NCBI GenBank assembly: GCA_028554645.1
Contig: JAQOOI010000002.1
Coordinates: 1-64,000 of the forward strand
Direction: 5' to 3'
Length of the DNA: 64,000 nucleotides
From: Omphalotus guepiniiformis
Taxonomy: Eukaryota > Basidiomycota > Agaricomycetes > Agaricales > Omphalotaceae
Made by a program: the position numbers and the translations under genes. Below the pieces are notes generated by a model. That model was not told the origin of the DNA and searched no databases. It worked only from the letters and a program-made list of their open reading frames with translations. Below, piece after piece: positions 5,347 through 64,000 of the stretch (position 1 is the first letter of the stretch; the number at the start of each line of letters is the position of its first letter).

Positions 5347-7383
5347 CTATTCGAGCTGCTCTAATGTCTTGCTCCAGTCGATGACTTTGGGATGTGCCGT
5401 GACCTTATTCGGGTTGAAACCGATGACTTGCAGCCCTGCTAAACACGATGCACGAGAAAGAGCGACGTAACTCTGGCCTTGAGTAAAAATCCAATCAGCG
5501 GGTGGTGTCCGGAAGAAAGCAAGAGAAGTAGACCTTTCTCGAACACATGCGCAAGGTCGACTTTTACGCGATGGATAGTCTGCCCTTGGCTTTTATGTAT
5601 CGACATCGCCCAAGCAAGGATGAGGGGCCTAGTCTAGTGTCAGATGCCATGCGCAATTCGGAAAATAAGCAGACTGACAATTGGGACCTTCTTGCCAGCT
5701 GCTTTCCATCTGCATCTTCTACCCGAAATTCGTCTCGTTTGATTAGAACAGCTTCGGAGCCAGTTTTGCCATTTTGCAAAGGGTACTCGAACAGCACAAG
5801 AGGGTATTTCTCCTCTCTGGGTGCATTGGCAATATGTGCTGCAGAATTCTCCTTGCCGGCATCCACTTCAGTAATGACAGGAGTCTCACCACCGCTATCG
5901 GATAGCAAAACGTGGCGCAGCAACGCGCCATTCTTCTTGGTCTCTGCAATTGACCCCCTACCATCAGCGCCAGCGAGTGGCTTTCCAGAATTGCTCAGCT
6001 TGTGGTTCGTAGCATCCGACAAATGAGCCCTTCCTGCACCTGCAAGCAGCTGGTTAGGGTGATAAAATCCAAGCACTTTCCCAACCACGCCGTTCACAAG
6101 TACGTCATCAACGTTCTTGATAAGCATGACCTGCGCGCCGACTTTGAGCTCCAGACGTGCTTCAGCCAGGAGATTATCGAGCAAAGCCTGCCGAGCACCA
6201 CTATCTTGAGCAACATATGCCATTCGAAGACCAGGTAGTGCGTCGAGTCGCGTGGCGTTAGCTTGCGCGACCTGCGCTCGGAGGGGGAAAAGTTTCAGTT
6301 GGTTGCGTCATGGAGGCATCGAGAGGTCTGGAGAGCGAGGTGAAGAGCTTGATGGCTTCCTCGTCTGCATGACCCAAACGCAGAGAATTCAGAGCAGAGA
6401 CGAACACTAAACAGATTTGGTCTTTGCAGAGAGGGGGTTGAGATATGAAAATAGCACTTACTGGCGTCTTTCTGCCGAAAAACTTGCGTGAGATTGATTG
6501 TACTTTCTAGCGTGTTGCGCCAGGCAGATGACTCAAAAGCAAACATAGGTTCTTGGTTGGCCTTGGCGACAGGTGGTAGTTGGAAGAAGTCCCCAGTTAC
6601 GACAAGCTCAACATGAATCAGTCGGCTTCTGCCAAGTCAAAATCTGCATCTACTCAGCGCACCTGCATACCACCAAAAGGTTTACCCGAGCTCTTGTTTC
6701 TAAGGTTAGAAGCGATGATAGCCAACTGCTCGAAAAAGTGGCCGTCCACCATAGATACTAAAAAGCGTATTGTTTAGATGATTCTTCAGCGAGTAAGATA
6801 GATGTTGATTTACCTTCGTCGATGACCAGGACCTTAGTTTTCCTCCATCGTTGCAGGGCTGGTCTGCAGGACTTGATGCATTTGATTACCATGTCAATGT
6901 CCGCGCACTTTGGCGTCACGGCCCCCCAAGAATGAATCGTCATGCCTATAACCAAACGTCAGCTTCTTCTCTGCGCAAAAATGAGAGCAAGCACCTCCAA
7001 CGTTGGCCGCAGCCATCCCTGTGCTTGCTGTGATCGATACGGCGTCTTTGTGGTTGGCGTACTTCTTCTGAAGGGCTGTGATGATTGCGCGCAGGAGTAG
7101 CGACTTCCCGGTGCCTGAAGAGAAAATTAATGTCGCAGGTCAGAGGATTTACATTCAAAGACGCGCCAGCTGCTCCAGTGAAGAACACGTTTTTCTCCTC
7201 GTCAACGACCATCCGCAAAACTCTGACTTGTTCGGGACTGAGCGCGACGTGGGCAGATTTATCAGAGTTTTTCTTCGCTAGAGGTACTCTGTAGGCGAAG
7301 AAGGAGTCGAGAGTTTGTCGAGACCTCTTCACTGGTGCTGAGCTCGAGGGAAGGGAAGCTTTGCGCTTGGCCGAAGTTGGCAT
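5347..7383 (-). pseudogene. PIF1-like DNA helicase, one frameshift
   Basis: Eight exons (7383-7167, 7114-6995, 6945-6814, 6757-6663, 6606-6462, 6406-5679, 5628-5534, 5477-5347) encode a PIF1-family 5'-3' DNA helicase of about 553 residues. Visible motifs in order are Walker A GAAGTGKS (across the first intron), GMTIHSWGA, Walker B VLVIDE-VSM, GDFFQLPPV with the following TQVFRQKD, then [27 protein letters not shown] and SYVALSRAS near the C-terminus. The N-terminus has a basic stretch (KRKASLP, VKRSRQ) and a DSFF motif. One extra base in the TTT run at 6293-6295 breaks the frame between PTE and LFPLRAQVAQANATRL. Removing one base restores a length divisible by three. The first intron appears to use a GC donor. 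The gene may be a recent pseudogene, or the frameshift may be a sequence error. PIF1 copies in mushrooms can be stand-alone or derived from Helitrons, and no Rep domain is present here. Confidence 0.85.
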
Positions 7384-7730: not shown

Positions 7731-8153
7731 AGCCTCGGCATCCAATGTTTCGACACAAAGAAGGACATTTTGCTGCATCGGGATTCAGCGTACTGCGGTT
7801 GCTGAGAAGTTTTAGAATCTGACTGAGTAATGCATAGACTGAAAAGGTACTAAGGTACTTGATTCTTAGAGTATCCAAGTTTTAGTTAGAGAATCAGAAA
7901 GAAACGACACGGTCATGACAAGGATGTAGATTCTAAGTATAATATACACACAGGAGTTAACTTTTGGTATTCAAGTGAAGTAGATTTCCTAGAGGTTTGC
8001 CTATGCAGACAGTAGGCGGGAGGTGAATGATAAGAAAGAAAGACAAAACCGAAGAAAAAGGATAATGGCGGGGGAAAAGGAGAAGGAAACCAAAACGAGA
8101 ACCATGTATAACAAGACACAAAGGTTGGGTGAAAAAGCGGGACGGGAGGTAAA

Positions 8154-8802
8154 TCACAAGCATCCTGCTGATCCTTCGTCGTTTTGATCCTTGCCCATGT
8201 AAGTTCCGGGTGGGCCACCACCAGGACCTGACATCATGCCTCGGCCTGTGGTTTGTTGGTCCTAACAACAACAATGATGCCAATTCAGGTTGGTGGAGTG
8301 ACAGCGACATACTTTGTTGTGTTTCCTGATTTCTCTGACAAGATTACTAAAGGATGTTTCAATGAATTTGCAAACGAAATGCCTACCGAGGTCCCAACCC
8401 TCTGCAGCGGGATAAGGAAGAGATGAGAGTTATGATTGATGGCCACGCAACTTGTCGTTCGTACTCCAAATCACGTTTGTTCGCTGCAACGACTACGGGG
8501 AAAGTGCCTTGGTCCTTGACCCTGAGAATTTGCTGGTGGAAAGTACTTATTTCCTCGAAGGAGTTGCGTGAGATGATGGAGTAGACCAAGAAGAAACCTT
8601 CGCCGGTACGCATATATTGTTCTCGCATCGCCCTATAGAGACGTGGAATCATGAGAAAAAGATGATAGAGATTCAAGGGAATGAAAATGGTAGAACGACT
8701 GAAACTCGCGAGTACTCTTCCTGTCCGGCTGTGCCAAGAACGCGCAGCAATGCCACTTCATCGCCAATCACGCATTGCTTCCGGTAGGAATCTTCGAAGA
8801 AT
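8154..8802 (-). pseudogene. Decayed Ras-type small GTPase copy
   Basis: Exons 8802-8710, 8632-8452, 8401-8313 and 8261-8154 give a clear Ras core: [63 protein letters not shown] and a hypervariable tail rich in Gly. The P-loop exon (GxxxxGKS) is absent; the sequence upstream to 9,080 does not encode it. The essential DTAGQ aspartate has become Gly (LGTAGQ). About ten residues after ETS are deleted. The tail ends GCL-stop, without a CaaX box. The introns are kept, so this is a DNA-level copy of a ras gene, not a retrocopy. One intron has a GC donor (or a mutated GT). It is almost certainly non-functional as a GTPase. Confidence 0.8.
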
Positions 8803-8948
8803 CTAGGTCAGCACACTTCAAAGACACGTCAAGCAGTAGAAGCAGCACCCAGTTATCCTTGGTCTCAAGATAGTTGCTCAGAAGTTGGCAATGCGTGTTT
8901 TCCGAGGCGAAGATGGCATGGGCGGTCCCGCACGACTCGCCTTCGAGT

Positions 8949-12788: not shown

Positions 12789-14695
12789 TCAATAACAATC
12801 CGGGCGTAAAGTTCGTGCTAGCGCTAGGCCCAAAGTCCAAACTGCGACAACGTCCGACTCTTCTGACCTCCCAGGAATGCGCTCTAATCCGATATTCAGG
12901 GCTTGCACCTGCTCATCATTGAGAACGGCTGACGGCGGTTGCACGTTTACTTCACTGAGCTTTCGAGGGGCCCCTCGATGGTGCCAAGAGCCAGAGCCAG
13001 CATCTTCCCGACTATAGTGTTTTCGTAAGGATTTGAGGAGATTTTCATCATGAAGTCCTTCCCAATCAACACCAAAAACTTCAAGCTCCTCCTCACTCAA
13101 AGGAAGGTCGTAAGGGTCGCCGCGAACTCCATTGACAATCATATCGAAACCAAACATATCCTCTGGGCTTCGGTTTGGGCCATTACGGGTAGAAATGCGA
13201 TGGTGATTCCAAGACTCCGCCCAGAAAGTCAACTCCTGGTTGATTGTGGGCAGGAAGAGGTGATGCAGGAGCCATACATGATTAACGTTGTTGATGTCCA
13301 AGCCATGACTCACTTCGAGGAGGGTGAACAGATTGGCCCATTTACTACCCACATAGGTGGTCACATCTACCCACAGTCTTTCAATCCTGGTATTGTGAAC
13401 GCTTCTGCAGAATAGCTCTGGTGTAAGCATGATTTCCCTGATATTAAGAGAAGCACCACTTGCCTCCCCCAAATGTAAGACCCGCGATCTTCGCCTCGGG
13501 CATTCTCCATAAAGGCAGCCACGAACAGGTTCTCTACTCCGTGGTCACCACGTAGACGAGATGGTATGCCGTAGATTTTGATAGCGATCAGGAAGAGTAA
13601 GAGCACAGTGAGTGCATGGTTGTTATTGCTGGCTCGAATTGCCGTGATAAGGCGCGAATACCCATCGATGAAAGCGTGAATGACAATACACCATCGAATG
13701 AGGCCTATAAGAAGCCCAGTGAGCCGAAGGAGGGCACTTGAAGGAATGGGAAAGCATACCATGCTGGCCATCGTGATGCCATAGAGAATTGGGACCTGGC
13801 ACGGAATAACCGCGCCTACGAATTCGAATTCGTTCGAATACGCGCTGTACTGGATCAATCCGGTTGAGAGATAATCGAATACGTTCATAAGGCACAATAT
13901 ACCCTAGCCGTCGCAGCATCCCATCAAGCATTCGGATGCCTGCTCTATGGTAATGGGCGCGTAAGCGGAGCAGGAGTTTGTCGAGATCATCATCGCTAAT
14001 ATTTGAGAGATACCCGGGGGAGGAATGGCAAGATGGCCTGGAATTGGAGAGCTCCTCAGGAAGCTCTGCTGGCAGAGGCAAGTCAGGGTCAAGTAAGTCG
14101 TCTTCTTCTAATTCTCCAGACTGGCCTGAGCCTTCCACAGGATCATGACTTACGCAAGGATTTGACCCTGCATTCGCAATTCCAAAGCTCAAGAGGGCCT
14201 CGCGAACTGTCGTACGGCCTACTCCCAGAAATTGAGCAATACCGCTTGTCGTGCGCTGAGTATACGCCCATCGGAGAAAACCAGGATGGATAAAGGTTCG
14301 TGGCCGGCCTCTACGTCCAGTATACACGCGATAAACCACTTGCGGATGCCCATGATGCGAGGAGTCGACTGAATAGCGGTGAAGAAGCACAGTGTCGTGA
14401 AGCATTAAGTTGAGGCCGGTCAACATGGTATTGAACTCCCCAGGCTCTCCAAACACTTCTTGATGCTTTACATCCATTCGTAAGCGGGTGATGCACATCT
14501 GGATTATGGGCTATAGCTTACTTGCTGAATTAAAGATATAAACTCCTCAATGTCTTCACCTAGCTGTTGGATAAGAAAGGCGTCCGTTTGCTCTGCTTGC
14601 TGGTGAATGTTCTGAACTAGGGAAGTGAATTTCACATAGTGTGCACGGAATGCATGCAGCATCAACGTTGAATTGTTGATGTTATGAACGTCCAT
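12789..14695 (-). CDS. Integrase-core (DDE) protein of agaricomycete type
   Basis: Exons 14695-14522, 14465-13760, 13704-13464 and 13404-12789 give an intact 578-residue protein. The N-terminal part is helical. A helix-turn-helix-like segment around TSGIAQFLGVGRTTVREAL follows, then the integrase core. The presumed metal ligands are the Asp in LWHHDGQHG, the Asp in RLRGDHGVEN and the Glu in NTRIERLW, the order seen in this mushroom integrase family. The third intron uses a GC-AAGT donor. Such genes are dispersed in mushroom genomes as mobile or domesticated integrases. I see no reverse transcriptase, protease or long terminal repeats around it. It sits between two paralogous genes and reads against them, which suggests insertion into a tandem pair. 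Confidence 0.8.
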
Positions 14696-19642: not shown

Positions 19643-22600
19643 TCACCTCATCGTATGGGCCGCAATGTTATCCAAGATATTGAACAACAACCAATGATGA
19701 AGTGCTACTTTCGCGTCCTTCAATTCCGAAGATTCATCGTACTCCTGCTTCAGGACTTTGATAAAGTAAGAGGTCGGGATATAGACGGAACGAGTGCATG
19801 TTCGGAAAGCGCACACCCCATACTTCAATAATTCGGATCGTAGGGATTCCGGCTGACCATTCAAGTAAGATGGATCATCATCGGCCACGAAATGAATCTA
19901 TCCTCCTGTCAGCCTATGTACGGACAAGTCAAACTGCTTCTCACCGAAATCCTGGAAACTTCGGGAGTCAATAATGGCGCGCCTGTAGCGGCCCAGCAGA
20001 ACATCCGAAGCCTGTAACCCAGACTAGAAGCATCCGTGAAGTCCGAGACCAGGGGATGGAACCGGCCCTTGAGATCATCCATGAGCTGAGGGCAAGGAAG
20101 GCCAGTTCCCTCAAAAAACTCTTGAAAGATAGAAGGAATTGTGGGCTGCATCTCTGGCGAACTCTCAAAAAGAGACCAATGTGGGAACAGGGCCTCAGAG
20201 ACTTCAGTTTTCAAATCCGGAGGCAGCCATATTTCCCAACGGATATTCAAGTCGGCGTAAGAATTCACCATCTGGGAGGAGTAGGATTGCTCTATGTACT
20301 TTGCAGGGCCCAAATCATAAGAGCGAACAATCTGCATGAGATGATTACTTCAATGATAGAACCACAGTGGTGGAAAAGACCCTACCTGGGGGAACGAGAA
20401 GCCATACTTCGTCCGCAATTGGAATCCGGCGAGGAAACACTGCCAATCGTGATGCGCCACTGTCGTGGGCCCAACAATGGCCCTTTCCAGCATGCCAATC
20501 CCCAGTGAGTCATGAAGACGCTGATCACGGCCGGCTAGAGAAGCCACCTAGAAATACAGAACTTAGCGCTACCTTTTCCTTCACATTAATCGTAAGGCTG
20601 GCCTACCTGTACCTCTCCATAGTACGTAGCAAAGAAAGCTTGGAAGTCCAGGATTTCATCTTCTGGCCCCAACGCTCGCCAGCGTGACAACATTTGATGT
20701 AGTTCAGGAAACCACCGCTTCACAAGCTCTTCAGAAAGGCATCCGATATCTCCCTCGTTTACAAGATAAATGAGCAATAGAGGGTTGAGAGGAATTGGAG
20801 CAAGGCCGTACACCAGACTTAGCGCAACCAATGCACCCAAAACCGCAAGATCCAAGGATCGCTCGTTTGAGGCAGGGACATAAGAGTGATAAGGGAATGT
20901 TGCCAAAGTTCCATACCCCCCAATTCGAGGAAGATACCATTGGCTCTCTTTCTGGGCATGCCGCTTCAGGGCCAGGAAAACAACCTCCCGCTCAATGCCA
21001 CATCCAGAGGACACGTATCGTTCCGCATCCAGACTATCTCTTCGCAACCTGCATGGAGGGTTCATCTCAGTTGTTTCGGTCACAAGAATAGATGGCGGTA
21101 AATCCTTACATGAGGAACTGACGAGAGGGGGAGAGAACAGTTGTAAAATCCTTCTTTTCAACAGCTTCGCGAATACGAATCAGGAATCTCATAGCCATCT
21201 CATCCACATCTGCCCCTCGAATTTCAAGGGTTGGAATTCCGCTATCTTCTTCGTCAAAACCCTCCTCCATCCGGCCACTCTTGTACATTTCGGCGGTGAA
21301 GTCAAATATAAACTCTTTGCGTTCGAACTCGTGGAAGCCTCGAACACCCTTTTCACGGGGAGGAGACCAGTTGTCCTGACTCCAAAGTTTTTCCGGTAGG
21401 AAATAATATTGGCTGGCCAGTTCCGGCATTGGTATGGTAACCACCTAATGAACTATCTCAGTCACAGGTACTTGCAGAGAAAATGAAATGGCCCTCACGG
21501 CATCAGACAGAGGATCTCGAGTCGAAGGCCTGGAAGGCCCTGCTGCGGTACGAGGAAGAGGTATTGTCACCGCCGCGTGAGAGGACGGCTCCGCCACAGC
21601 AGGATGAGGGGGTGCTGCAGTCCCTGCGGCAGTGGTAGCCGTTGTGTTTGGTCGGAGATTCAGGGCTTGCACAACCTCATGCTCCTATCCAGGCATAAGT
21701 TCCTATTCACCATGCAATCAGCAAGCGGACGATACCTCCTGTAGCTCCTCGTCCTCATCGCAAGACGCGTAGCCCTCCTCCTTTAAAACCTGTTTAATTT
21801 CTCTTGTTCGGCAGTCGATATCACTGCGGAAGATCGCGTAAAGCTTGCGAGAGATGCACCGATGGGGTCTGACTACAGTGTCTGTGCCGAGATGCACTAA
21901 ATCCAGGCTAATGTTTAGAGCAGGAGACGGGTCCCGCATAACTAGAACAAAAATGCAGTTTAGCGAAGAGATCAAGCATAATAAAAACTTACTTGTGTTC
22001 AAAATAAACCGATTGCGCTCTGTGACGACTAATTTCGGGAGGGCGAAGCGGCTGTCGCGAAGGATATCTTCGAATGTAAGATTGGCTCGAAAAGATGTCG
22101 GTTGCAGCCTTGGTGTCTTATCGCTTCCATTTGCTCGACCAAGGTTGGTAAAAGACAGCAGCTGAAGAGGAAGGACTTCATGGGCAGCAAGAGTTCGCTG
22201 CTGTAGAAAGTCAATCTGAGGGAGAACCCATCCTTTGCCAACGAGCTGAGCAGCCACATAGGTTAGAAGGTCAACCACCATAGTGGATAAGGGGAGGTGA
22301 GTAAACTCATAGAAACATCCGATAGACTTTAAGAAATTCGTCCAGGTATCTAGGTTTCGAGTATAATAGACAAGATGCAATGGATAATTTCCGTTCTAAA
22401 GTTTCGCAGGGTTCAGATCAGGTTTATAGGCAGGTTTATAGGCAAGTACACAAAACCTACCTTTCGAAGATCAAGGGCGAGCTGAGGAGGGTAGACATAA
22501 AGGTCAAGGCTGACCACCGGAATGTTTCCCTCGGCGACGTCGCAACACGAATGGACAGAAGGAGGCTTCGAGCCATGCCCAATACTAGGGCCTGGGACTG

Positions 22601-23333
22601 CTTTGCCGCGACGCCTCTTCTTGGGTAAGGACTCTTGAGCATGGCTCATCCTACCTCGATTGGTTCTTTGCGTGTCTTGACGTGTGATTCCAAGAGACTC
22701 CAAGAAATTCTGACCAGCTGCTGAAGTTGAGCCCCCACGAGGTGCCGGCAGAGTAGAAGAAAGGAAAGACGAGGGAGAAGGTGAGCTGGAGGGAAGGGAT
22801 CCTAAGGATGAGAGCATGTGGATGCTCTGATAGGGTTGTGCAGGAGGGGGTGGAGGAATAGAAAACGTATCTCCTGAGTCAAATCCAGATGTTGTGGAGG
22901 CGCCTGGCAAGTGAGAGGTAGTGTCGTTACAAGCAAAGAAACCAGGAGAATGAGTCTGAGGCTGAAGCTGATTTGGTGAATAGGATGAAGAAATAGTGAG
23001 TGGAGCGGCTTGGGTCGAAGTGGTCTGAGATGGGGTATGCACCGGGACATTTGCATTGAGCTGGGACGGTAAGGGTTGTGGAATTGGATTGGCGGGAAGG
23101 CGTTGTTGCAAAATGGAATGCGGGAGTGAAGTAACAGAAAGGGGCTGTGATGTTATCGAACCCCCATCTGAATGAGGCGTTGTGGAAGGAGAGTTTGACG
23201 GTGCTGGCGTCGGTGTGGGGGATGGAGTTGCTGCGCCTGCGCCAGCCATTAATTGCTGAACCTGTGCAGCAGGAAGCGCGCCGGACGCCAGTACAGATCG
23301 AATAGCATCCGCAACAAGCGCATTGAGGTCCAT
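19643..23333 (-). CDS. HECT-like ubiquitin ligase domain protein
   Basis: Nine exons (23333-22461, 22395-21993, 21941-21736, 21684-21499, 21444-21110, 21048-20607, 20547-20386, 20331-19945, 19897-19643) encode 1,082 residues in one frame. The first 290 residues are low-complexity Ser/Pro/Gln with a basic KKRRRGK stretch, a possible nuclear signal. The C-terminal 450 residues resemble a HECT domain: GCGIEREVVFLAL, a hydrophobic LAVLGALVALSLVYGLAPIPLNP block, WEIWLPPDL, the FCWAATGAPLL block and, 50-70 residues from the end, AFRTCTRSVYIPTSY. In the last, the Cys matches the position of the catalytic Cys (usually TCxN...LPxY). HECT enzymes pass ubiquitin through that Cys to substrates. The match is distant and the residue after Cys is Thr, so ligase activity is an inference. 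The gene is intact. The start was taken at the second Met (CGCCATGG context); an upstream Met at 23345 is possible. Confidence 0.65.
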
Positions 23334-24751
23334 GGCGTTGTGCACCTATCGAATATGATTAGCAGCCAGAAGAAATTTCAAAAGAATGCTAAGGCTGAGG
23401 CTGAGGCGTGGAAGGTCAACAAGAGGGAACGAAAAGAGACTTTGAAAGAATGACTATTTGGGCAGTATGGTCAAAAGAGTGCGGAAGGCGGATTGAGAGC
23501 AACGCGTCTGTAACGTCTTAAATACGCGCTATTTTGTCACCACCGCACGAGGTATGAATATTTAGGCCAAATACCACGAATATCACGAAAGGTTGAACGA
23601 AAGTCAGCGCACGGTGCAGCGAAACCAAGACATATCCCCGCAGAGATCACGAAAACCTTCAGTCTCACCCACGACAAGGAAAAGGAAAAGTAAACACATA
23701 TATTGAAGAAAAGTAGATCACTAACAGAGCTTGATATTTGGCTGAGATATTGTTGAGAGTACACGTAAGAGGAGAAACAAGTTAATTGAGATGTAGAAAA
23801 GTAGGAAGTAAACAGTCGCAAGTCCTTTCGGCAAAGGTCGAACAAATGATGTAATTGGTTCCTTTTTCCGTCGAAATCTGCTCTCATATATATCAGACTC
23901 GGAGAACGCACCAACTATACTGTACAGTGTACGCTGTATACTGCGTGTTTCATACTTGATACGAGATGGCAATACATCCTAGATACTTGCTGATACACTC
24001 GAAGACAAGTGAGCTATGTTTCCGGCGATGAACAGAACTTCAACTGGGTAGGATGCAGGTAGGAATCCAGGATGGAACGCGGTGAGCGAAAGACACACCG
24101 TGGGAAGAAATACAAGTACATAATATAAAAGTCACGCGACGGCACATTCATGCCGAGAGGCAAGCGCTCAGGCCATGCACTGGCAGGGGCACACGATGGA
24201 CGACGTGCACAATCTTTTTGACCATCATCATCTTCGACCGACCTGCATATATAGGGCTTTTGAACCACAAAGGGAGATATCTGTGCTGTGATTTGGAGTA
24301 TCTGTTCTAGCTTGTCTTCCTCATATTCGTGAACGACCGTAAGTGTTCGTGTTTCGTGTTTCGTCCTCAGCAAACGATGATTTGGCGTTCGTTTCAGGTT
24401 GATTCTTGAAGTGGATTGTTGTCGTAAGAAGCTTTTCAAGGTATTTGAAATCGTACCGTGCTGGACCTGGTGCGTTGTTCGTTGTTCGTTGTGTTTCGGT
24501 TGATGAAGGTATTGATAACGTGGGTTTGGAGTATAGTTGAATGACATTGAATACTGAACGATAATACTGGTGTGTTTCCACTTGTTCGCTGCGCTCGAGA
24601 GTTTACTGATTCACTTTCTCTTGGTTTCGTTACATAGGCTAAACGAGACGCACTGGTATGTCGTCTGTTCATTTCTTCTACCCACGTATCTGACATTCAT
24701 CTATCTTCTCTAAGGACTGATTAATTGAACGTTGAAACGTTGAATGTCGAA
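23334..24751. other. Divergent intergenic region
   Basis: About 1.4 kb between two divergent genes, presumably holding both promoters. It contains the inverted copy (about 23,853-23,890) of the 2,812-2,850 repeat and a short GTTCGTT repeat near 24,477-24,492 in the OXR1 leader. No supported exon. Confidence 0.45.
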
Positions 24752-27603: not shown

Positions 27604-30600
27604 TCAAGAAACAGACAAAGGAACACAATCATTCAACGTCTTGCATTGAGCCCAGTTTTCTCCATGCACAAAGTTCTCAAGAGAAATATATACTGGGTAT
27701 TGACAGATCAGGACAAGTGTGCAACTGTTCTGGTATAAAATTGGTTTTCTTAGTGAGGGAGGAAGCCAAAACAAATGGGGGATGTTGATGGTTGAAATCC
27801 ATCCAGAAGAATCAGGAAGCTGAATCTGATCCACATTGATTGCAGGTGAGTCATGCTGTGAAGTTCTTAAGGCTGTCTTGCTGCTGGCATCCCACACTCT
27901 GATGGTCTTGTCTAAAGACCCAGAGACAATCTTGAGGCCATCAGGAGATAATGCAACTGACATTACTAAACTCATATGTCCCTGAAGTGGGTCCATGAGC
28001 TGCTGCCCTGTGCTAGCATCCCATACTCTGATGCTCTTGTCATGTGACCCAGAGACAATCTTGAGGCCATCAGGAGAGAATGCAACTGATATCACACTAC
28101 CCTTATGTCCCTGAAGTGGTTCCATGATCTGCTGCCCTGTGCTAGCATCCCATACTCTGATAGTCTTGTCATATGACCCAGAGACAATCTTGAGGCCATC
28201 AGGAGAGAATGCAACTGACATCACTAAACTTATATGTCCCTGAAGTGGGTCCATGATCTGCTGCCCTGTGCTAGCATCCCATACTCTGATGCTCTTGTGA
28301 TGTGACCCAGAGACAATCTTGAGACCATCAGGAGAAAATGCAACTGACATCACATAATCCTCATGTCCCTGAAGTGGTTCCATGATCTGTTGCCCTGTGC
28401 TAGCATCCCATACTCTGATGGTCTTGTCAGAAGACCCAGAGACAATCTTGAGGCCATCAGGAGAGAATGCAACTGATATTACCTTACCCTCATGTCCCTG
28501 AAGTGGTTCCATGAGCTGCTGTCCTGTGCTAGCATCCCATACTCTGATAGTCTTGTCATATGACCCAGAGACAATCTTGAGGCCATCAGGAGAGAATGCA
28601 ACTGATATCACATAATCCTCATGTCCCTGAAGTGGTTCCATGATCTGCTGCCCTGTGCTAGCATCCCATACTCTGATGGTCTTGTCACAAGACCCAGAGA
28701 CAATCTTGAGGCCATCAGGAGAGAATGCAACTGATATCACATAATCCTCATGTCCCTGAAGTGGTTCCATGATCTGCTGCCCTGTGCTAGCATCCCAAAC
28801 TCTGATAGTCTTGTCATGTGACCCAGAGACAATCTTGAGGCCATCAGGAGAGAATGCAATTGATGTCACATAATGCTTATGTCCCTGAAGTGGGTCCATG
28901 AGCTGCTGCCCTGTGCTAGCATCCCATACTCTGATGGTCTTGTCATATGACCCAGAGACAATCTTGAGGCCATCAGGAGAGAATGCAACTGATTTCACAT
29001 AACCCCAATGTCCCTGAAGTGGTTCCATGAGCTCCTGCCCTGTGCTAGCATCCCATACTCTGATGCTCTTGTCATGTGACCCAGAGACAATCTTGAGGCC
29101 ATCAGGAGAGAATGCAACTGATGTCACATAACCCTCATGTCCCTGAAGTGGGTCCATGAGCTGCTTCCCTGTGCTAGCATCCCATACTCTGATGGTCTTG
29201 TCAGCAGACCCAGAGACAATCTTGAGACCATCAGGAGAAAATGCAACTGATGTCACAAAATGCTTATGTCCCTGAAGTGGTTCCATGAGCTGCTGTCCTG
29301 TGCTAGTATTCCATACTCTAATGGTGGAGTCATCAGACCCAGAGACAATCTTGAGGCCATCAGGAGAGAATACAGCTGAGTTCACATTCTCTCCATGACC
29401 CTGAATTACATGTATCTCTGCAGACCACTTTGATGCCTTCCCTCTGCTTATATGTAGTATATTCTGGTAGTCCTGCAGATAATGTTTGCATACAAGTGAG
29501 CCACTTGGTGCACAGGGAAGTGCAGATATATAGATATGTGGTGCACTATCTGCTATAGAAGAAGCAAAGGCAGTCACAAACTGTAATGCATCTTCTGCAA
29601 AATCAAGTAGGTCATCTGCTTGAGACTAATTTCATGGTCAGTAATGAAATAGTCCTTCTTATAAATAAACTTGCCTTTAGTAGATGACCTGCATCCTGCA
29701 ATATTGATATGGCCAGTGGAACTTGTCCATATATACTCAGCACTTCTAGCCAGTATAGAAAGTCTTTATGGAACAGTGCAGTTAGGTCCTTCTTGAAAAG
29801 TCGGTAGGATGTCTGGTCCAATTTGACTAGTTCATCAATGTGAAACATCCAATAGGAGCAGGAGTATAGTAGATATTGTGGAACTGCAACCTGAAGCTGA
29901 TTTCTAAAATCTCTATTGGAGATATATGAGGAAGGGAAATTGGCAATATTGAACTTGAGTTCAGCATGCATAAGGTTGAGACATCTTTGAGAGAGATTCT
30001 CTTGAGCCTTTTGCTGGTCAATAAACCACAGCTGTTTACCACATGCCTGTATGTCAAGCAGATAGTCTGCAAATGATGCATGTAGTAGTTGAACTGGCTT
30101 GTTATCACCATAGTCCAGGACAGATCCAAAATGCTGTAGAATGCTTTGCACACTTTGATCTGGTGAAAGAAATTCATCCATTGCTTCAGGGGTGAATGGT
30201 TCTTTTGCCAAGATGACAAGTGATAGTATTCTCTGAAATGCCTCCATAAACCTGGTGTCTTTCCAGTTATCTCCACCTGAGCTCTCTAGAGCAACTGCAT
30301 ATAACTGATGTAGTGCATTATATGCATCTCCTCCTGTGACACCATGTAGCACTTTCTTTAGGTTGGGCAACAAGGAATACCCTTCAATGAATTTGATCAT
30401 AGTGGCACACCAGATAAATAGACCTTGAGATTGTTCATATAGTGTCTTGATAACAGTTTTCCCTGGCCAATTATCTCCAAGCTGTAAATATTTATATCTT
30501 GCTTCATTTTGAATTCTTTTGAATTCATAAGATAGATATGAAGTGATGTCTTGTGGCTGGGATAAAGTGACAAGGTCTGGTTGGTGCACATGCTTTTTGT

Positions 30601-32629
30601 GCTCCAAATGCCTTTTGATATCAAGTTCTGGCCGGCTAGTGACCACAAATTTGATAAAGGGTGGTAGTAGCTGGAACCTGGTACCTAGAAGCTCTGCAAG
30701 CTCACTTGGTGATCCAGATTCGTCCAATGCATCTAGCACAATAAGCACAGGCCCTCTTCCTGCTATGTCCTGGGCAGATTCTTGTAAAGGCTGCATCAAG
30801 TAATCCTGGAAATACTGACCAGCAGATATCCCAAAGGGAGGAGGATTTCTCTCCATGGCCTGCAGGATGTTCTGGCCAACTTCTGGGTAATATATACCCA
30901 AATGATAAGCAAGTGTCTTTATCAATAACCTTGTATCAGGGCTCTTTCCACGTTCAAAGCAGATATATGCTACAGTGCGCTTTAAAGACTGAAAATGATT
31001 GGCAACTGTACATGCCAGTGCACTTTTGCCAAATCCAGCAGGCATACACAGCCAAAGAATGTTTTCTTCCCTAGAAGAAACAATCTGCTCTTCAATGAGC
31101 TGCAATATTGCCTGTCTTGTTCCAGGAAGGCATTGCTTATGCACTTTTTGGGTATCATCTTTCATTGGAGTCAGCTCTGAGCTTAAAGCTATACAATTTC
31201 CATATTATTTTCCAATAGTATCACTGAGATTAATAAAACTCACCTAGCTTATTCATCTGCTGGGCAATATGGATAGTTGCCACTGCAATGTGGGAACTAA
31301 CACCAAGCTGAATATCTTGCTGGAGCTTTGCAAAAACATTCTTGAATTCTTGTATCTTGTTACCAGAGCCAGTGGATATGTGCTTTGACATTCTACCTGT
31401 GGAATATCTATTAACATCAATATAGTTTTAATCTTTTTAAGATTACCTCCAAATCCATGCCCACAATACTCTCTGATAAAAATCATACACTCCACAGTCT
31501 GGTCCATACTGATCTTGATAATATCCTTCAAACCAGACATCTTGCTCTTCTCTGAGTTGAGTGTATCAACAAAGCCAAAGAATGTCTCAATTGTAGAGAC
31601 TAGTTCTACAATAGCTTTATCTCTCTGCACCTGAGCAGAAATTGCCTGCATATCATCAGCATCAAGAAGTCATGGTGAGAGATCATAGTTACCAACCTTA
31701 TACACTGAGGAGACTACTGTCCATGCTAGAGCAATATAGGGATGTATCTGATGGAATATAGGTAAGTTCAATACATATAATCATCCCAAAGTCACATGTG
31801 TACTCACAGATGCAATCTCATCAATCACTTTCACAAAATTCTGCAACCCTTCTAACTTCTCACAAATAGCCTGAATACTCTTCTTCAAGGCATCTCCACC
31901 TAGAGCAGAACTTACTGTCCCAACTGTACCCACAACCTGGGATATGCTGGATTCAGCAAACACATTGTCTCCTTGGATTTTCCCGACAGCAGACTTGGCT
32001 ACACCAATTGCATGTGCAGCTGCCTCATGATCAGATTCTCTACTCAAGGTGATGAAGAGAGATCCTGCAGGAGAGTTTTTCTTTTGAAGCTGAAGGCAGA
32101 TTTCACCACTAGTATCAGAGGCTTGGGATTGGTTAAGTCAGAAATGAGTGAATAGACAAATAGAGAGATTACACACTGCCTTGAGAGGTAGATTCATCAG
32201 CCTGAGTGAATGCCTTGAGAAGATCTTCAAAGGTTCTGTTGGTTTCCCCAAGACTCCTTTTAAGAACCTTATGCTTGACAATTGTGAATTTAAGCAAGGC
32301 TGAGGGTGAGCATGAATCATCCAAGACACTGCATACATTGATGGTGTATACAACACATACAACAATTGTCAGAATAAATACAAGATAGAAAGATATGCAC
32401 ACACACTGAAAATCCAGCATTCCAGACCGGATTCTGAGAATTTTTCACAACTGTAGTCTCATAGGATTTGTCTCCAATCGTGATCTTGACAGATGTATCA
32501 GGAGCTTTCTTGCAATACTTTGAGAGACTCAAATCCATCGCATGAGAAACTGTATACAAATTTAATATAGCATAGTAAGAGAGTCTAACTGAAGTGATTA
32601 GACATACCTTTCGTACTGTATTTGGTCAT
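27604..32629 (-). CDS. C2-NACHT-WD40 NLR-type receptor
   Basis: Nine exons (32629-32608, 32549-32405, 32328-32173, 32108-31808, 31747-31697, 31645-31447, 31396-31244, 31188-29675, 29625-27604) join into 1,520 residues. Residues about 10-130 form a C2-like domain (VKITIGDKSYETTVVK, NPVWNAGF). A helical stretch follows, then a NACHT NTPase with Walker A PAGFGKSALA, Walker B VLIVLDALDES and the VTSRPE motif. A helical linker leads to twelve WD40 repeats of 43 residues. Fungal NACHT-WD40 proteins of the het-D/het-E type sense non-self and trigger cell death; the WD repeats bind the ligand. The repeats here are almost identical and differ mainly at a few positions, as expected for that class. The intron before the WD exon has a GC-AAGT donor. 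The whole gene is strikingly poor in CpG. The frame is intact throughout. Confidence 0.85.
27890..29410 (-). repeat. 129-bp tandem repeats encoding WD40 units
   Basis: Twelve consecutive units of 129 bp, nearly identical at DNA level, encode the WD40 repeats of the receptor. Each unit carries the words TGATGGCCTCAAGATTGT and CAGGGACAT in coding sense. Differences cluster in a few codons after the GH dipeptide and near the Asp-Lys position. The two ends of the array are more diverged than the middle. Confidence 0.9.
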
Positions 32630-59689: not shown

Positions 59690-61460
59690 TGATGCATGAA
59701 CAGAGGCTTGGACTACGATTATGGCTTGACGCATGAGGCTTGCCATCCGAGCCTGCAGTCGTGATCATCGGATCTCTTCTTTTCGTTGGGGTTTCCTCCA
59801 CACTGTACCACCACTGCCGCATCCTCATCGATGCACCCCTCAATTCCATCTTGATTCTTCAACGCCCTCTTCCTCCTCTTCCTCGCCCGCCTCGTGATGT
59901 TCACCCCGTCTTGCACCGCCATCATCTCCCATAAGAGTCGAGCTCTATGTGATATGAATGAGAAAAGGACACGATTCAACCTACACAATACCCTGCTTGC
60001 ACTCGTGATTTGAACCAACATGATCAACCAACCCAACAATGTGAGTACGGCCCTGAGTCCTTTTCCATCGCAAAGCTTTGGAGATCGAGCCTATGTCAAC
60101 AGCTACATCAACTGTTAACAGTAACACGCGAGAAGACTTACCTGTCTCCTAGTCTTTCTCATTCTCTTCGCCGATCTGTCTTCGCATTTCGTCCGGAGAC
60201 ACCTTTCACCGACAAGCGCTAGGCCAAGCGCACCGAATTACTTCCAGCTAAATGGATTCTAGATCGAACCGGTCGTCGCATAGCTCGCCAACAATGCTCG
60301 CCAAACCGTCATATCCTGGCCACAAGTGGCCAGAACGATCACGTGGGAAGACGCGTTACTATTGTGCTTACGCGTTTGCAGCTATTGTTCGATTAGCCTT
60401 AAAATGTTGACTCTTTCCCATGTCCTTCTGCACTCTTCTGCACCTCCATCATCTCTCGTCGCCGTCCCGCTATTAGCAGTCATAGCTTGAGGGCCCCAAA
60501 CTATGACTAGTGACTGCTAATAGCGGGATGGCCGTTGCTAGCACTAAGGTGGACCAGCCATTTGGACCATACACTGAAACGCAACGAGACGAGGGGATCG
60601 GCTGGCACCAATTTGACTGCACGAACCTGCCACCCAGGATCGCGAGCTCATGGTGTCAACGATGGCAAAGCTTACAGAACCAGATCTCTGGATCGTAAAG
60701 CTGTTGCCAGATGGAGTGGCAGTGGATATTTGTTGTTGAGCAATACATGTCAATCGGCGACTGCCACAGTGGCGCCTGAACCACACCTCTCAGAGCGGTG
60801 TTTAACGTTCAGAGATCGTCCTTAGTCTTCGCTATAAATTTGACCCCAGGAGCGAGTAGGTCTCATCGACTAGTTCGTTGCAATGTAACATGGTGCAAAG
60901 TAGGCCTCCCTCGAAGATGCCAGACAGAAGACTCCGAGTGTTGGACATGGCGAGTCATTATCTCAATCTCACGGACGTGATATGGTGCTCCTACCTTCTG
61001 CGTACATGTGGATGAGCGTCGAAAATCCAAAAGTGTGGACGCGACCAGGCAGCGACGCTGGCACATTGTACACTTCTTGTCGTCTATGGACCAGGAATTG
61101 TACCTTTATGTCGAGGCTTATCACATGTCATGAATACCGACTGCGTATTCGAAAGTTTTTCGCTCACTTGGCCACATCTTCAGGCGAAGGTCCCGCAGGA
61201 TTATCGGAAGCCGCAAGAATACATTGATGGAACATGCGCCCCTGGACGGCGCGAATGTGAAAGAGCACTGGATCCTTTGTACACCTATGGGGTCTTTTAG
61301 AGCAAATAAAATGTGTTTGCTCACCAAACCAACTTTGCACGGTTAGTTTCAAAGCATGTCGTGCTTACACTTGGAGCAATTGCAGCCTGCGCCTCTGCAT
61401 CTTGTATAGAAATCCTCGAACCTCTTTCAAGTTGGCGATATACGCAATAAACAGGGACTC
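59690..61460. repeat. Duplicated block, copy C
   Basis: This copy matches A over about 42,050-43,860 and B over 52,197-52,440 and 53,350-53,800, in the same order and orientation. It ends in a truncated XanA remnant. The divergence is substantial, with many indels. Confidence 0.65.
61147..61445 (-). pseudogene. 3' remnant of the XanA-like gene
   Basis: The minus strand encodes MFHQCILAASDNPAGPSPED, matching the last 24 residues of the intact dioxygenase. The preceding part matches its last two introns and exons, with a deletion that removes the iron-binding His region. There is no upstream coding part. Confidence 0.8.
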
Positions 61461-62076
61461 GAATGTGGGATTAAACGATATTACCACCTTGGAGGAATTT
61501 GATGACATCTGCAAAGCTTCGCGGCTTTCTTCAAGTTACGACATGTGCCCACTACTGGTGACTTCAACGCGGCAGTTTATGGTCCATATATTTGGATCTA
61601 TTGGTGAAGAACCAGACAGATTCAGAAAAGGCTTTTTGAGCCATGTTTATCGAGAAGTAAGCAGGTGACTACAGGGCGCTACTGATACATGCAATGAAGG
61701 GGCAACATCCAGGAAAACAAGAGAAATAGAGAAATAATTTATCCGACCGGGAAAAAACTCAGAAGGAGCGTGTGGGAGCCATATAAGGGGGAGGTGCGAA
61801 TATCGAAAGGTAGCAAGGTCAGCTCGTGAGATTGAGCGTCAGCACTAAAGATTCCTATTGGACAACTTTGGAAACAATCAATGGCCGTCGAACGTCGAGA
61901 GGAAGAAAAGAAACAGAGTACTCACCAGCCAAGCCAGTTGGAGAAGCCAGAAGAAGAACAGACACTTTGATTACGAAGTTACAATTGCGCTCGCTTGTGT
62001 TGCCTGCAAGCCGACATCAGAGACAACGCGAAACAAATCAATCTGAAGGCACTCACGTACTATAAAGGATGGTATC
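61461..62076. other. Intergenic, 3' side of the first pheromone gene
   Basis: No supported gene was found in this stretch. Confidence 0.4.
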
Positions 62077-62250
62077 CTATGCCACAACACAAAATGCGCT
62101 GAGATTGGAACCGCCATACTCCTCATTGACCGGTATGGGAGAGGAGGGTGAGGGAGCCTTGGAAACGTCAGTCTCACAGGATTGAGCGACGAGTTGTGCA
62201 TCGCAGATAGATGCAGGTAGAGCAAGTTCAAGCGAGTCAAAGCAGTCCAT
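62077..62250 (-). CDS. Lipopeptide mating pheromone precursor
   Basis: A 57-residue frame starts MDCFDSLELALP and ends SAFCVVA-stop. Basidiomycete pheromone precursors have this design: 40-70 residues, an acidic start (MD.F..L), no signal peptide, a processing site of charged residues about ten residues before the end, and a C-terminal CaaX box that is farnesylated and carboxymethylated. The acidic pair is in VNEEYGG, so the mature peptide would be about YGGSNLSAFC with a lipid on Cys. A second gene of the same type lies 1.25 kb away on the same strand, which makes chance unlikely. It is secreted by an ABC exporter (Ste6 type) and sensed by STE3-type receptors on compatible mates. No intron is needed in the coding part. 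Confidence 0.8.
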   Translation of the reverse strand: MDCFDSLELALPASICDAQLVAQSCETDVSKAPSPSSPIPVNEEYGGSNLSAFCVVA

Positions 62251-63500
62251 TAGCGATGAGGGATAGGTGAAGGACAGTAAGTGATGTCGATATGTATCGC
62301 TGGAGGAAAGTTGATTGATAGTCCGAGTCGAGGCTATTGAGGTAGGCGGGATTGTAAGAAAACTTTTGCAGGAGTGGCACCGCCTTTTATTCTTTTATTC
62401 AAGTGACAGAAGAATGGTTTCAAGATGGCATTGTCTCTGTCGGAATTGTGGTCATTGTGCCTCCAGAATAGGTACTAAGGTAGACCAGGGACAATAGGCT
62501 TAGTCATAGTGGCAGAACAATGGTGAAAAACACACTCACGTGATAGCGTGCCGGAGGTGCCGTAAATGGACCATCCGACGTTGCCGGTAGCGCTTGGTAG
62601 CGCCCCAAACACGCTGCTGGAGTATAACGGTTGTAGCAGCTTGCATGGCTCACAGTGCGCACGGCACACCGTTCATTTTGTAACAGTGTCAGATAAGGCG
62701 CAGCCGCGGACGTACTTGAAGCGCATATTCGGATTTTACTAACCGCCATATTGCCACAACTGGCAGTAGCAGCCTGATACAGTGATAGCAACGGGGCAAC
62801 GTTCATCTGCCCAAGATTTGCTGAGATCAAGTAAAAAGGGCCGACAACTGGATGTGCCCTGTGTCTTTTTTTCATCTCCTCTTTCCTTAAACTCAGTATC
62901 GTCTCAGGCGTATTTCAAGCGTCATTTCTCGCAAGTTGGCCGTCGTCCGACATGAGCAGAGAAATGTACCACTATTAGCTATTTCACTTACACCATCCAC
63001 TACTTATAAAACACAGGCAGAGAAATCAAAGGTTTTGCCCACAATGTGGAAATTGAGGAGCTGATAAGAATAATAATACAGTACACTATCGCTACATTGT
63101 GGTATATAAAGTCAAAGTAGACCACGGATAGGAAGCACACCCAAGAGGAAAGGAATAATAGACAAGTGAGGGTGTCGAGAGTGGAAAATCATCAATGCTA
63201 AAACGAGTGTATGATCGCTATTGATGAGCAAGGGGAAAAAAAGTCAAGATTGAAGCCCTGGCCTGCTATCAAAGCGACCGAAACAAAGAAACAGTGACCT
63301 AGAGTAATAAAGGATGTAAGCAACGTGAAGCAGATGCTGAAGATGTTTGAACGAGCCTACCATGGTTTGATGGCCAAGAGAAGATCGAAGTGCAATAGCA
63401 ATAAATAGGTTTGAAAATTGCTGGATATACAAACGTCAGCTGGAGGGATAGGAGCCTTGATTCTATGTAGCGCGGACTCACGTAAAGCAGATTGCTTCAA
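62251..63500. promoter_or_regulatory. Interval between the pheromone genes
   Basis: This holds the promoter of the first pheromone gene. ACAATGG at 62,517-62,523 is a match to the core bound by HMG-box mating regulators; an AATAAAAG word lies about 140 bases upstream of the start in gene sense. No further pheromone frame was found, although short overlapping frames exist. Confidence 0.35.
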
Positions 63501-63665
63501 TCAAGCCACGACGCACCAAGCAGTGACGCCTATACCGCCGCCTGCTTCTTGGTCCACTGGGGAGGGAGGGAGCGAGTGGAGCTCAGAAGAGTCGATAGAT
63601 GTCAGATATTGAATATCGTCAAGGGGAGCAGGAGCAATGAGCGATAGCGTTTCGAAAGTGTCCAT
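63501..63665 (-). CDS. Lipopeptide mating pheromone precursor
   Basis: A 54-residue frame starts MDTFETLSLIAPAP and ends VTAWCVVA-stop. Length, the MDTF start, the Pro-rich middle (LPPSPVDQE), the Gly run AGGGIG and the CVVA CaaX box are all those of agaricomycete pheromone precursors. Cleavage after QE would give about AGGGIGVTAWC with farnesyl on Cys. It shares start, spacing and CaaX box with the gene at 62,077-62,250 but differs in the mature part, as expected for pheromones of different specificity or two within one allele. The gene has a good TATA box 88 bases upstream of the start. It was too short to stand out from the overlapping open frames. Confidence 0.85.
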   Translation of the reverse strand: MDTFETLSLIAPAPLDDIQYLTSIDSSELHSLPPSPVDQEAGGGIGVTAWCVVA

Positions 63666-63752
63666 TTGCTAGTATACGATGTTGAATAGATAAAACGTGT
63701 GGGTTGGCGAAAGCGAAGTTTGTTGAGGTCTGCTTTGGCTGGAGAGCCTTGA

Positions 63753-63836
63753 TTTTTATAATCAAGAGCAGTTATGGCAAGGCATTGTGGATAGACAATA
63801 AGATGAGGATGTCCATTGTTGTACCCTAGACAATGG
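63753..63836 (-). promoter_or_regulatory. Core promoter and HMG-type sites of the second pheromone gene
   Basis: In gene sense, TATAAAAA (63,760-63,753) stands 88 bases before the ATG. Further upstream, ACAATGG words occur in opposite orientations at 63,813-63,819 and 63,830-63,836. HMG-box regulators of mating genes recognise ACAATG/ACAAAG-type cores, so pheromone-responsive control is plausible. Confidence 0.45.
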
Positions 63837-64000
63837 CCAGAAGCCAGCTGCAGGTAAGAGGCATTAGTCACGAACAATAACACACGTGCCTTGCCTGCCT
63901 TCCAGCTGCACGGCATCTCGGCATAACGAATTTGTCCTCCGCCTTTTTTTTTCCTTTTTGTTTTTTTTTTCTTGAGTGCCAATGCGGCTCCCCGTATGCA
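63837..64000. other. Window edge
   Basis: Short stretch to the end of the window with T-rich runs near 63,940-63,972. No feature is supported. Confidence 0.4.

Follow-up and report, generated by a model that had tools for sequence, protein, structure and literature searches.

Two lipopeptide pheromone precursor genes beside a STE3-type receptor gene in a probable mating-type sublocus of Omphalotus guepiniiformis

The window analysed here, the first 64,000 bases (C6:1-64000) of the 138,666-base contig C6, belongs to a 42.5-Mb assembly (42,492,304 bases, 80 contigs) and carries near its right-hand edge two short genes with the following features.

62077..62250, minus strand: pheromone precursor gene 1, single exon, 57 amino acids, end PVNEEYGGSNLSAFCVVA (open reading frame and PF08015)
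62119..62127, minus strand: NEE, predicted processing site of precursor 1 (translation; role by analogy with passages in PMC5100862 and PMC8686365)
62080..62091, minus strand: CVVA, predicted CaaX farnesylation box of precursor 1 (translation)
63501..63665, minus strand: pheromone precursor gene 2, single exon, 54 amino acids, end PVDQEAGGGIGVTAWCVVA (open reading frame and PF08015)
63546..63551, minus strand: QE, predicted processing site of precursor 2 (translation; role by analogy with the same passages of PMC5100862 and PMC8686365)
63504..63515, minus strand: CVVA, predicted CaaX farnesylation box of precursor 2 (translation)

A preliminary description had singled out both frames from the bare sequence as lipopeptide pheromone genes, and they are present as a same-strand pair of 57 and 54 codons, with the MD starts, the acidic pairs NEE and QE and the identical CVVA ends all visible in the translations. 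NEE corresponds to residues 42-44 of the 57 residues of precursor 1, 9 residues separating its last Glu from the CaaX Cys, and QE to residues 39-40 of the 54 residues of precursor 2, with 10 residues between the Glu and the Cys. In the passage of PMC5100862 devoted to their definition, pheromone precursors consist of 40-100 amino acids with a C-terminal CaaX and a charged pair located 10-15 residues from the C-terminus. Precursors 1 and 2, with 57 and 54 amino acids, a CVVA end and a last Glu 13 and 14 residues from the C-terminus, respectively, fall within this definition, except that their charged pairs are EE and QE instead of the ER, EH or ED named in that passage. The PF08015 profile scores the two intact proteins at 24.1 and 28.0 bits, both above the cut-off of 22, and at 22.4 and 25.2 bits in a six-frame search of the genome. 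Among the 8 short frames of the window which pass a loose CaaX filter, these two are the only pheromone-like ones. A strict filter (MD start, 35-80 amino acids, an acidic triplet placed 8-13 residues ahead of the C-terminal CaaX), designed after precursors 1 and 2 were known whereas the PF08015 profile is independent of both, retains exactly 2 frames in the window versus a mean of 0.005 per dinucleotide shuffle (n=200), and none of the 200 shuffles contained two such frames together. The frames 62077-62250 and 63501-63665 are confirmed, as far as the sequence can tell, as intact lipopeptide pheromone precursor genes. A CaaX scan of C6:60001-138666, performed in 10-kb pieces such that a frame spanning a joint could escape, detected no further pheromone-like gene, and a literal text search of the literature for the peptide ends of the pheromones found no match.

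The preliminary description, made from the raw sequence alone, expected a STE3-type receptor to the right of position 64,000, or else its loss. The genome contains 44 exon-level matches to the STE3 family profile PF02076, and the search of the contig past 64,000 revealed that a group of four, within C6:64916-66008 (minus strand), makes up one intact gene.

C6:66041-64445, outside the window, minus strand: STE3 receptor gene, six exons, 438 amino acids (splice model)
C6:66041-65828, 65775-65663, 65591-65525, 65473-65336, 65280-64833 and 64781-64445, minus strand: receptor exons (splice model)

The deduced protein covers all 292 positions of PF02076 with 366 bits, and its designation as a seven-helix receptor is based on this full-length match, a simple hydropathy plot displaying six clear segments, not seven. 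The gene ends 445 bases to the right of the window, with 780 bp separating this end from the start codon of pheromone gene 2, and it shares one common strand with both pheromone genes, so that loss of the receptor is rejected. The absence of receptor and other pheromone genes within about 50 kb, one of the refuting conditions of the same description, is equally contradicted by this receptor, and the allelic contig C8 carries at the same position a receptor and three further pheromone genes. The exact motif ACAAAGGG, similar to the pheromone response element of Ustilago, is present at 3 positions in C6, one of them within the C6 core at 114 bp before the receptor start, and at one position in C8:46001-66000, 106 bp before the C8 receptor start. 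Neither C6 pheromone gene has an exact copy; looser ACAAWRG matches near both genes carry little weight, 74 of them occurring on C6.

Contig C8 consists of 237,216 bases, which were examined over 1-76,000 and 176,001-196,000. According to blastn, C8:1-76,000 is collinear with C6:27,394-138,666 in opposite orientation, at ~91-98% identity in the main blocks, the exceptions being the core C6:61,250-67,241 and insertions found in one haplotype only; C6:90.6-113.5 kb and 39.6-51.5 kb are without collinear counterpart in C8. The blocks and the genes of the C8 core are as follows.

C8:152-19524 = C6:138666-119040, 95.3%
C8:20306-25881 = C6:119048-113482, 98.1%
C8:25877-41286 = C6:90607-75189, 97.1%
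C8:41812-49176 = C6:75189-67778, 95.0%
C8:49322-49660 = C6:67573-67242, short block, 77.4%
C6:61250-67241, window part 61250..64000: haplotype-specific pheromone/receptor (P/R) core (blastn)
C8:49900-50085, minus strand: C8 core pheromone gene (CaaX scan, PF08015)
C8:51248-51427, plus strand: C8 core pheromone gene (CaaX scan, PF08015)
C8:55085-55258, minus strand: C8 core pheromone gene (CaaX scan, PF08015)
C8:56486-60514 (as 60514-56486) = C6:57195-61249, left flank of the core, 96.2%
C8:60513-63404 = C6:55387-52432, 91.2%
C8:63689-64392 = C6:52255-51531, 92.4%
C8:64777-67190 = C6:39593-37165, 93.5%
C8:67188-75142 = C6:35828-27872, 95.6%

The window part of the core, 61250..64000, has no match in the C8 pieces (blastn, E 1e-10), though both flanks match, and no match of at least 300 bp in C8:1-76000 (E 1e-20). 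Between the two cores of 6-7 kb, C6:61250-67241 and C8:49661-56485, the receptor is the only common part, with 69.9% DNA identity, and its match runs opposite to the flanks; the gene is therefore inverted between the haplotypes. Two other matches, of a 173-bp piece (C6:66945-67117) to the C8 flank (82%) and of C8:55853-56588 to C6:44228-43450 (79%), are not core-to-core. Three pheromone genes, all over the PF08015 cut-off (26.4, 29.2 and 29.5 bits), surround the C8 receptor versus two in C6, and the pheromones differ between the cores, the five core peptides being EEYGGSNLSAFC, QEAGGGIGVTAWC, EEALNSGNYTAFC, EDHVGDGNFSAFC and EQIGSGEASTFC.

The C6 and C8 receptors have 261 of 317 residues in common (82%, conserved part), with a dN of 0.12, a dS of ~2.6 which is near saturation and thus approximate, and differences at 72 of 122 fourfold sites. 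For the neighbouring STE3 genes, the pair C6:123k/C8:15k is identical at 303 of 306 residues (dS 0.12) and the pair C6:126k/C8:12k at 272 of 278 (dS 0.09). A dS of ~2.6 for the receptor versus ~0.1 for its neighbours indicates that divergence is concentrated in the core, as prolonged balancing selection at a mating-type gene would predict. High dS values are also described for mating receptors in the relevant passages on Trichaptum by Peris et al. (2022, PMC8970355), where mating proteins of <86% identity gave compatible mating types. The STE3 genes at C6:122-127 kb were rejected as mating receptors, being 98-99% identical between haplotypes and accompanied by no other pheromone-like gene in the CaaX scan of C6:60001-138666; they rather look like conserved receptors of a non-mating type.

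Elsewhere on C8, at 180-187 kb (L031:4335-4538 to L032:715-894), a second P/R sublocus consists of two pheromone genes, with the ends EH...GGYCVIA and EH...GGYCVVA, which flank two STE3 genes sharing ~50% of their residues (152/306, with one of the models doubtful). No second allele of this sublocus was seen in the genome STE3 profile search. The retrieved stretches yielded thirteen STE3 gene models, a weak match on C78 being left out. The genome comprises eleven pheromone-like genes, ten identified by PF08015 at a loose threshold and one (C8:180335-180538) by the CaaX scan, which covered the retrieved stretches; six of the ten are over the cut-off in the six-frame search, and 8 of the 11 reach it as proteins, including one whose score is printed as 22. 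Four pheromone-like genes are scattered at C61:681 kb, C75:252 kb, C22:1998 kb and C75:121 kb (in the same order, L009:1495-1689, L016:1501-1671, L017:1501-1656 and L018:1468-1593). Their ends are CTIA or CVVA, only one of the four reaches the PF08015 cut-off, and the genome PF02076 search gave no STE3 match near any of them.

The homeodomain (HD) genes occur on a further contig, C22.

C22:1436765-1436887, minus strand: PF00046 match of the HD pair
C22:1437952-1438071, plus strand: PF05920 match of the HD pair, divergent from the former
C22:1418659-1420196: Peptidase_M3 (MIP-type) gene, ~17 kb from the HD pair

In the genome profile search, C22:1436765-1438071 is the only place with both homeodomain classes together, the other matches consisting of seven PF00046 and one PF05920. 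MIP is presented as a mark of the HD locus in the corresponding section of PMC8686365. C22 is distinct from the P/R contigs C6 and C8 and from C19, contigs not necessarily being whole chromosomes, and this separation of the HD pair fits a tetrapolar layout, short of proof.

The right-hand end of the window thus holds two precursor genes, and just past it lies an intact receptor; the second haplotype, on C8, has a receptor that is diverged, pheromones that differ and flanks that are nearly identical. The preliminary description had placed this end of the window in or next to the P/R (B) locus. Because the flanks match (~91-98%) whereas the core pheromones differ and the receptor is 82% identical, with a dS of ~2.6, and inverted, the region bears the signature of a multiallelic B (P/R) sublocus, and it is very probable that both genes represent the pheromone half of one allele of such a sublocus in a mushroom-forming basidiomycete. 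In characterised mushrooms, according to passages of PMC5100862 and PMC8686365, a charged pair 10-15 residues from the end defines the cut region. By analogy, the CaaX Cys of each precursor would undergo farnesylation and carboxymethylation, and cleavage close to the acidic pair would liberate a lipopeptide of about 10-12 residues. The target of this lipopeptide would be the STE3-type receptor of a partner carrying another allele, e.g., that of C8, and not the receptor encoded beside its own gene, and B-regulated development would hence start between unlike nuclei only. Single synthetic pheromones of Lentinula edodes activated non-self receptors in a sublocus-specific manner, as stated in PMC7288658.

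We infer that C6 and C8 reside in different nuclei. It is decidedly unlikely that they are paralogous P/R copies in one nucleus, which would unite two compatible specificities and result in self-compatibility at the B locus. The homeodomain genes give the two-nucleus reading no support, both classes occurring together only once, at C22:1436765-1438071, where a two-nucleus assembly might show two pairs; the single pair is therefore a point against a fully two-haplotype assembly. However, the contigs are collinear at ~91-98%, two non-mating STE3 genes included, which argues against paralogy. Moreover, the outer flank exists in a third copy, the terminal 19 kb of C19, which switches between C6-like and C8-like bases, as expected from collapsed haplotypes. 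Among the sites differing between C6 and C8, C19 has the C6 base at 363 and the C8 base at 188, with 62 further sites C19-only; the agreement comes in runs, C8-like or mixed over the first 5 kb, then C6-like, and C8-like over the last 4 kb. The C19 end looks like a mosaic of two collapsed haplotypes, which continue beyond it as the separate contigs C6 and C8. Another STE3 gene likewise occurs on the near-identical contigs C39 and C55 (295 of 297 residues identical), again at variance with paralogy.

The idea that precursors 1 and 2 are relic or orphan pheromone-like genes unused in mating, as might be suggested by the four genes without nearby STE3 match, is highly improbable for two intact genes situated inside the haplotype-specific core, the nearer one next to a full-length receptor. 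Chance open frames retain practically no credit since, even though loose CaaX ends arise randomly (4 in the window for a mean of 2.04 per shuffled window, in a looser count), they are rejected by the shuffle test, by the PF08015 cut-off passed by both precursors, by the adjacent receptor and by the allelic structure.

With C6 and C8 taken as alleles, one assembly offers two versions of a B sublocus, and the specificity of their five pheromones and two diverged receptors is directly testable with synthetic peptides, while the two cores represent marker sequence for breeding or population work. The system itself is biologically well known, and the locus is a clear but ordinary example of it. In the B-beta sublocus of L. 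edodes, as reported in PMC7288658, the receptor RCB2 is clustered with the pheromone genes PHB3, 4, 7, 9 and 10, as are receptor and pheromones in the C6 and C8 cores. B-beta mature forms such as EAGGGDAIAFC and EAIGAGDATAFC are built, by eye, like QE-AGGGIGVTAWC and EE-YGGSNLSAFC of C6. By eye, the C6 and C8 core peptides would seem to resemble the B-beta forms, and those of C8:180-187 kb the B-alpha forms (EH...GYC). None of the L. edodes peptides in Table 2 of PMC7288658 is identical to the C6 or C8 ones, and the likeness concerns the mature pheromones only. According to PMC5100862 and PMC3140503, Flammulina velutipes similarly possesses two subloci, PR-a and PR-b, in which a receptor is joined by one pheromone gene or two, and the same region contains receptor-like genes of a non-mating type, as here. 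The subloci are 177 kb apart in that species versus ~128 kb on C8, and FvPp1 carries an additional Trp behind its CaaX box, in contrast to the plain CVVA of C6; one C8 gene ends in CVVS and another in CVIA. The P/R locus of Hypsizygus marmoreus, as outlined in PMC8686365, also combines receptors, CaaX pheromones of ~50 amino acids and receptor-like genes, with the pheromone ends CVIA and CTIS instead of the CVVA of C6.

In both haplotypes, the P/R core is flanked by an inverted duplication of ~12 kb.

C6:27.5-39.4 kb versus 90.5-79.3 kb: arms of the inverted duplication, identity 78-84% for the most part and as low as 71% in places
C8:25.6-37.1 kb with 64.9-75.4 kb: arms in C8 (via matches to C6)
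27607-31204, minus strand: NACHT-WD40 (NLR-type) gene, with a paralogue in inverted orientation (C6:86.6-90.4 kb); the C8 haplotype has both

The duplication contains the NACHT-WD40 gene (PF24883 76 bits, WD40 493 bits), whose WD40 repeats in the 27607-31204 copy have a 129-bp period and are up to ~92% alike, and an F-box-like gene (19.7 bits, below the cut-off of 24.3). Four of the 63 PF24883 matches of the genome correspond to the arms on C6 and C8, and with so many matches one NLR gene near the P/R locus is weak evidence and perhaps a coincidence. It would be an unlikely, speculative role for the arms of this old duplication that they promote inversion of the mating-type core or suppress recombination across it, linking the mating locus and NLR genes of the allorecognition type in one non-self recognition block. 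Among the papers listed by a literature search, no title or abstract beginning mentioned a connection between NLR genes and a mating-type locus.

The left part of the window contains other features. A decayed gene copy at 7822-8830, which reads as a Ras-type GTPase from its translation, shows ~82% DNA identity to three copies on C55, C61 and C39, all located ~3 kb from STE3-like receptor genes; the C55 copy ends in the CaaX sequence GCCGGCVVL, and the window copy stops before it. A stretch of 3.9 kb at 20001-23888 has a copy at C12:20032-23919 listed as 100% identical, and may be a mobile element of recent origin or a duplicate created during assembly. Finally, a frame with an integrase-core match (12792-13544, PF24764, 81.7 bits) and a Pif1-type helicase fragment (5567-6307, 36.9 bits) may correspond to mobile elements.
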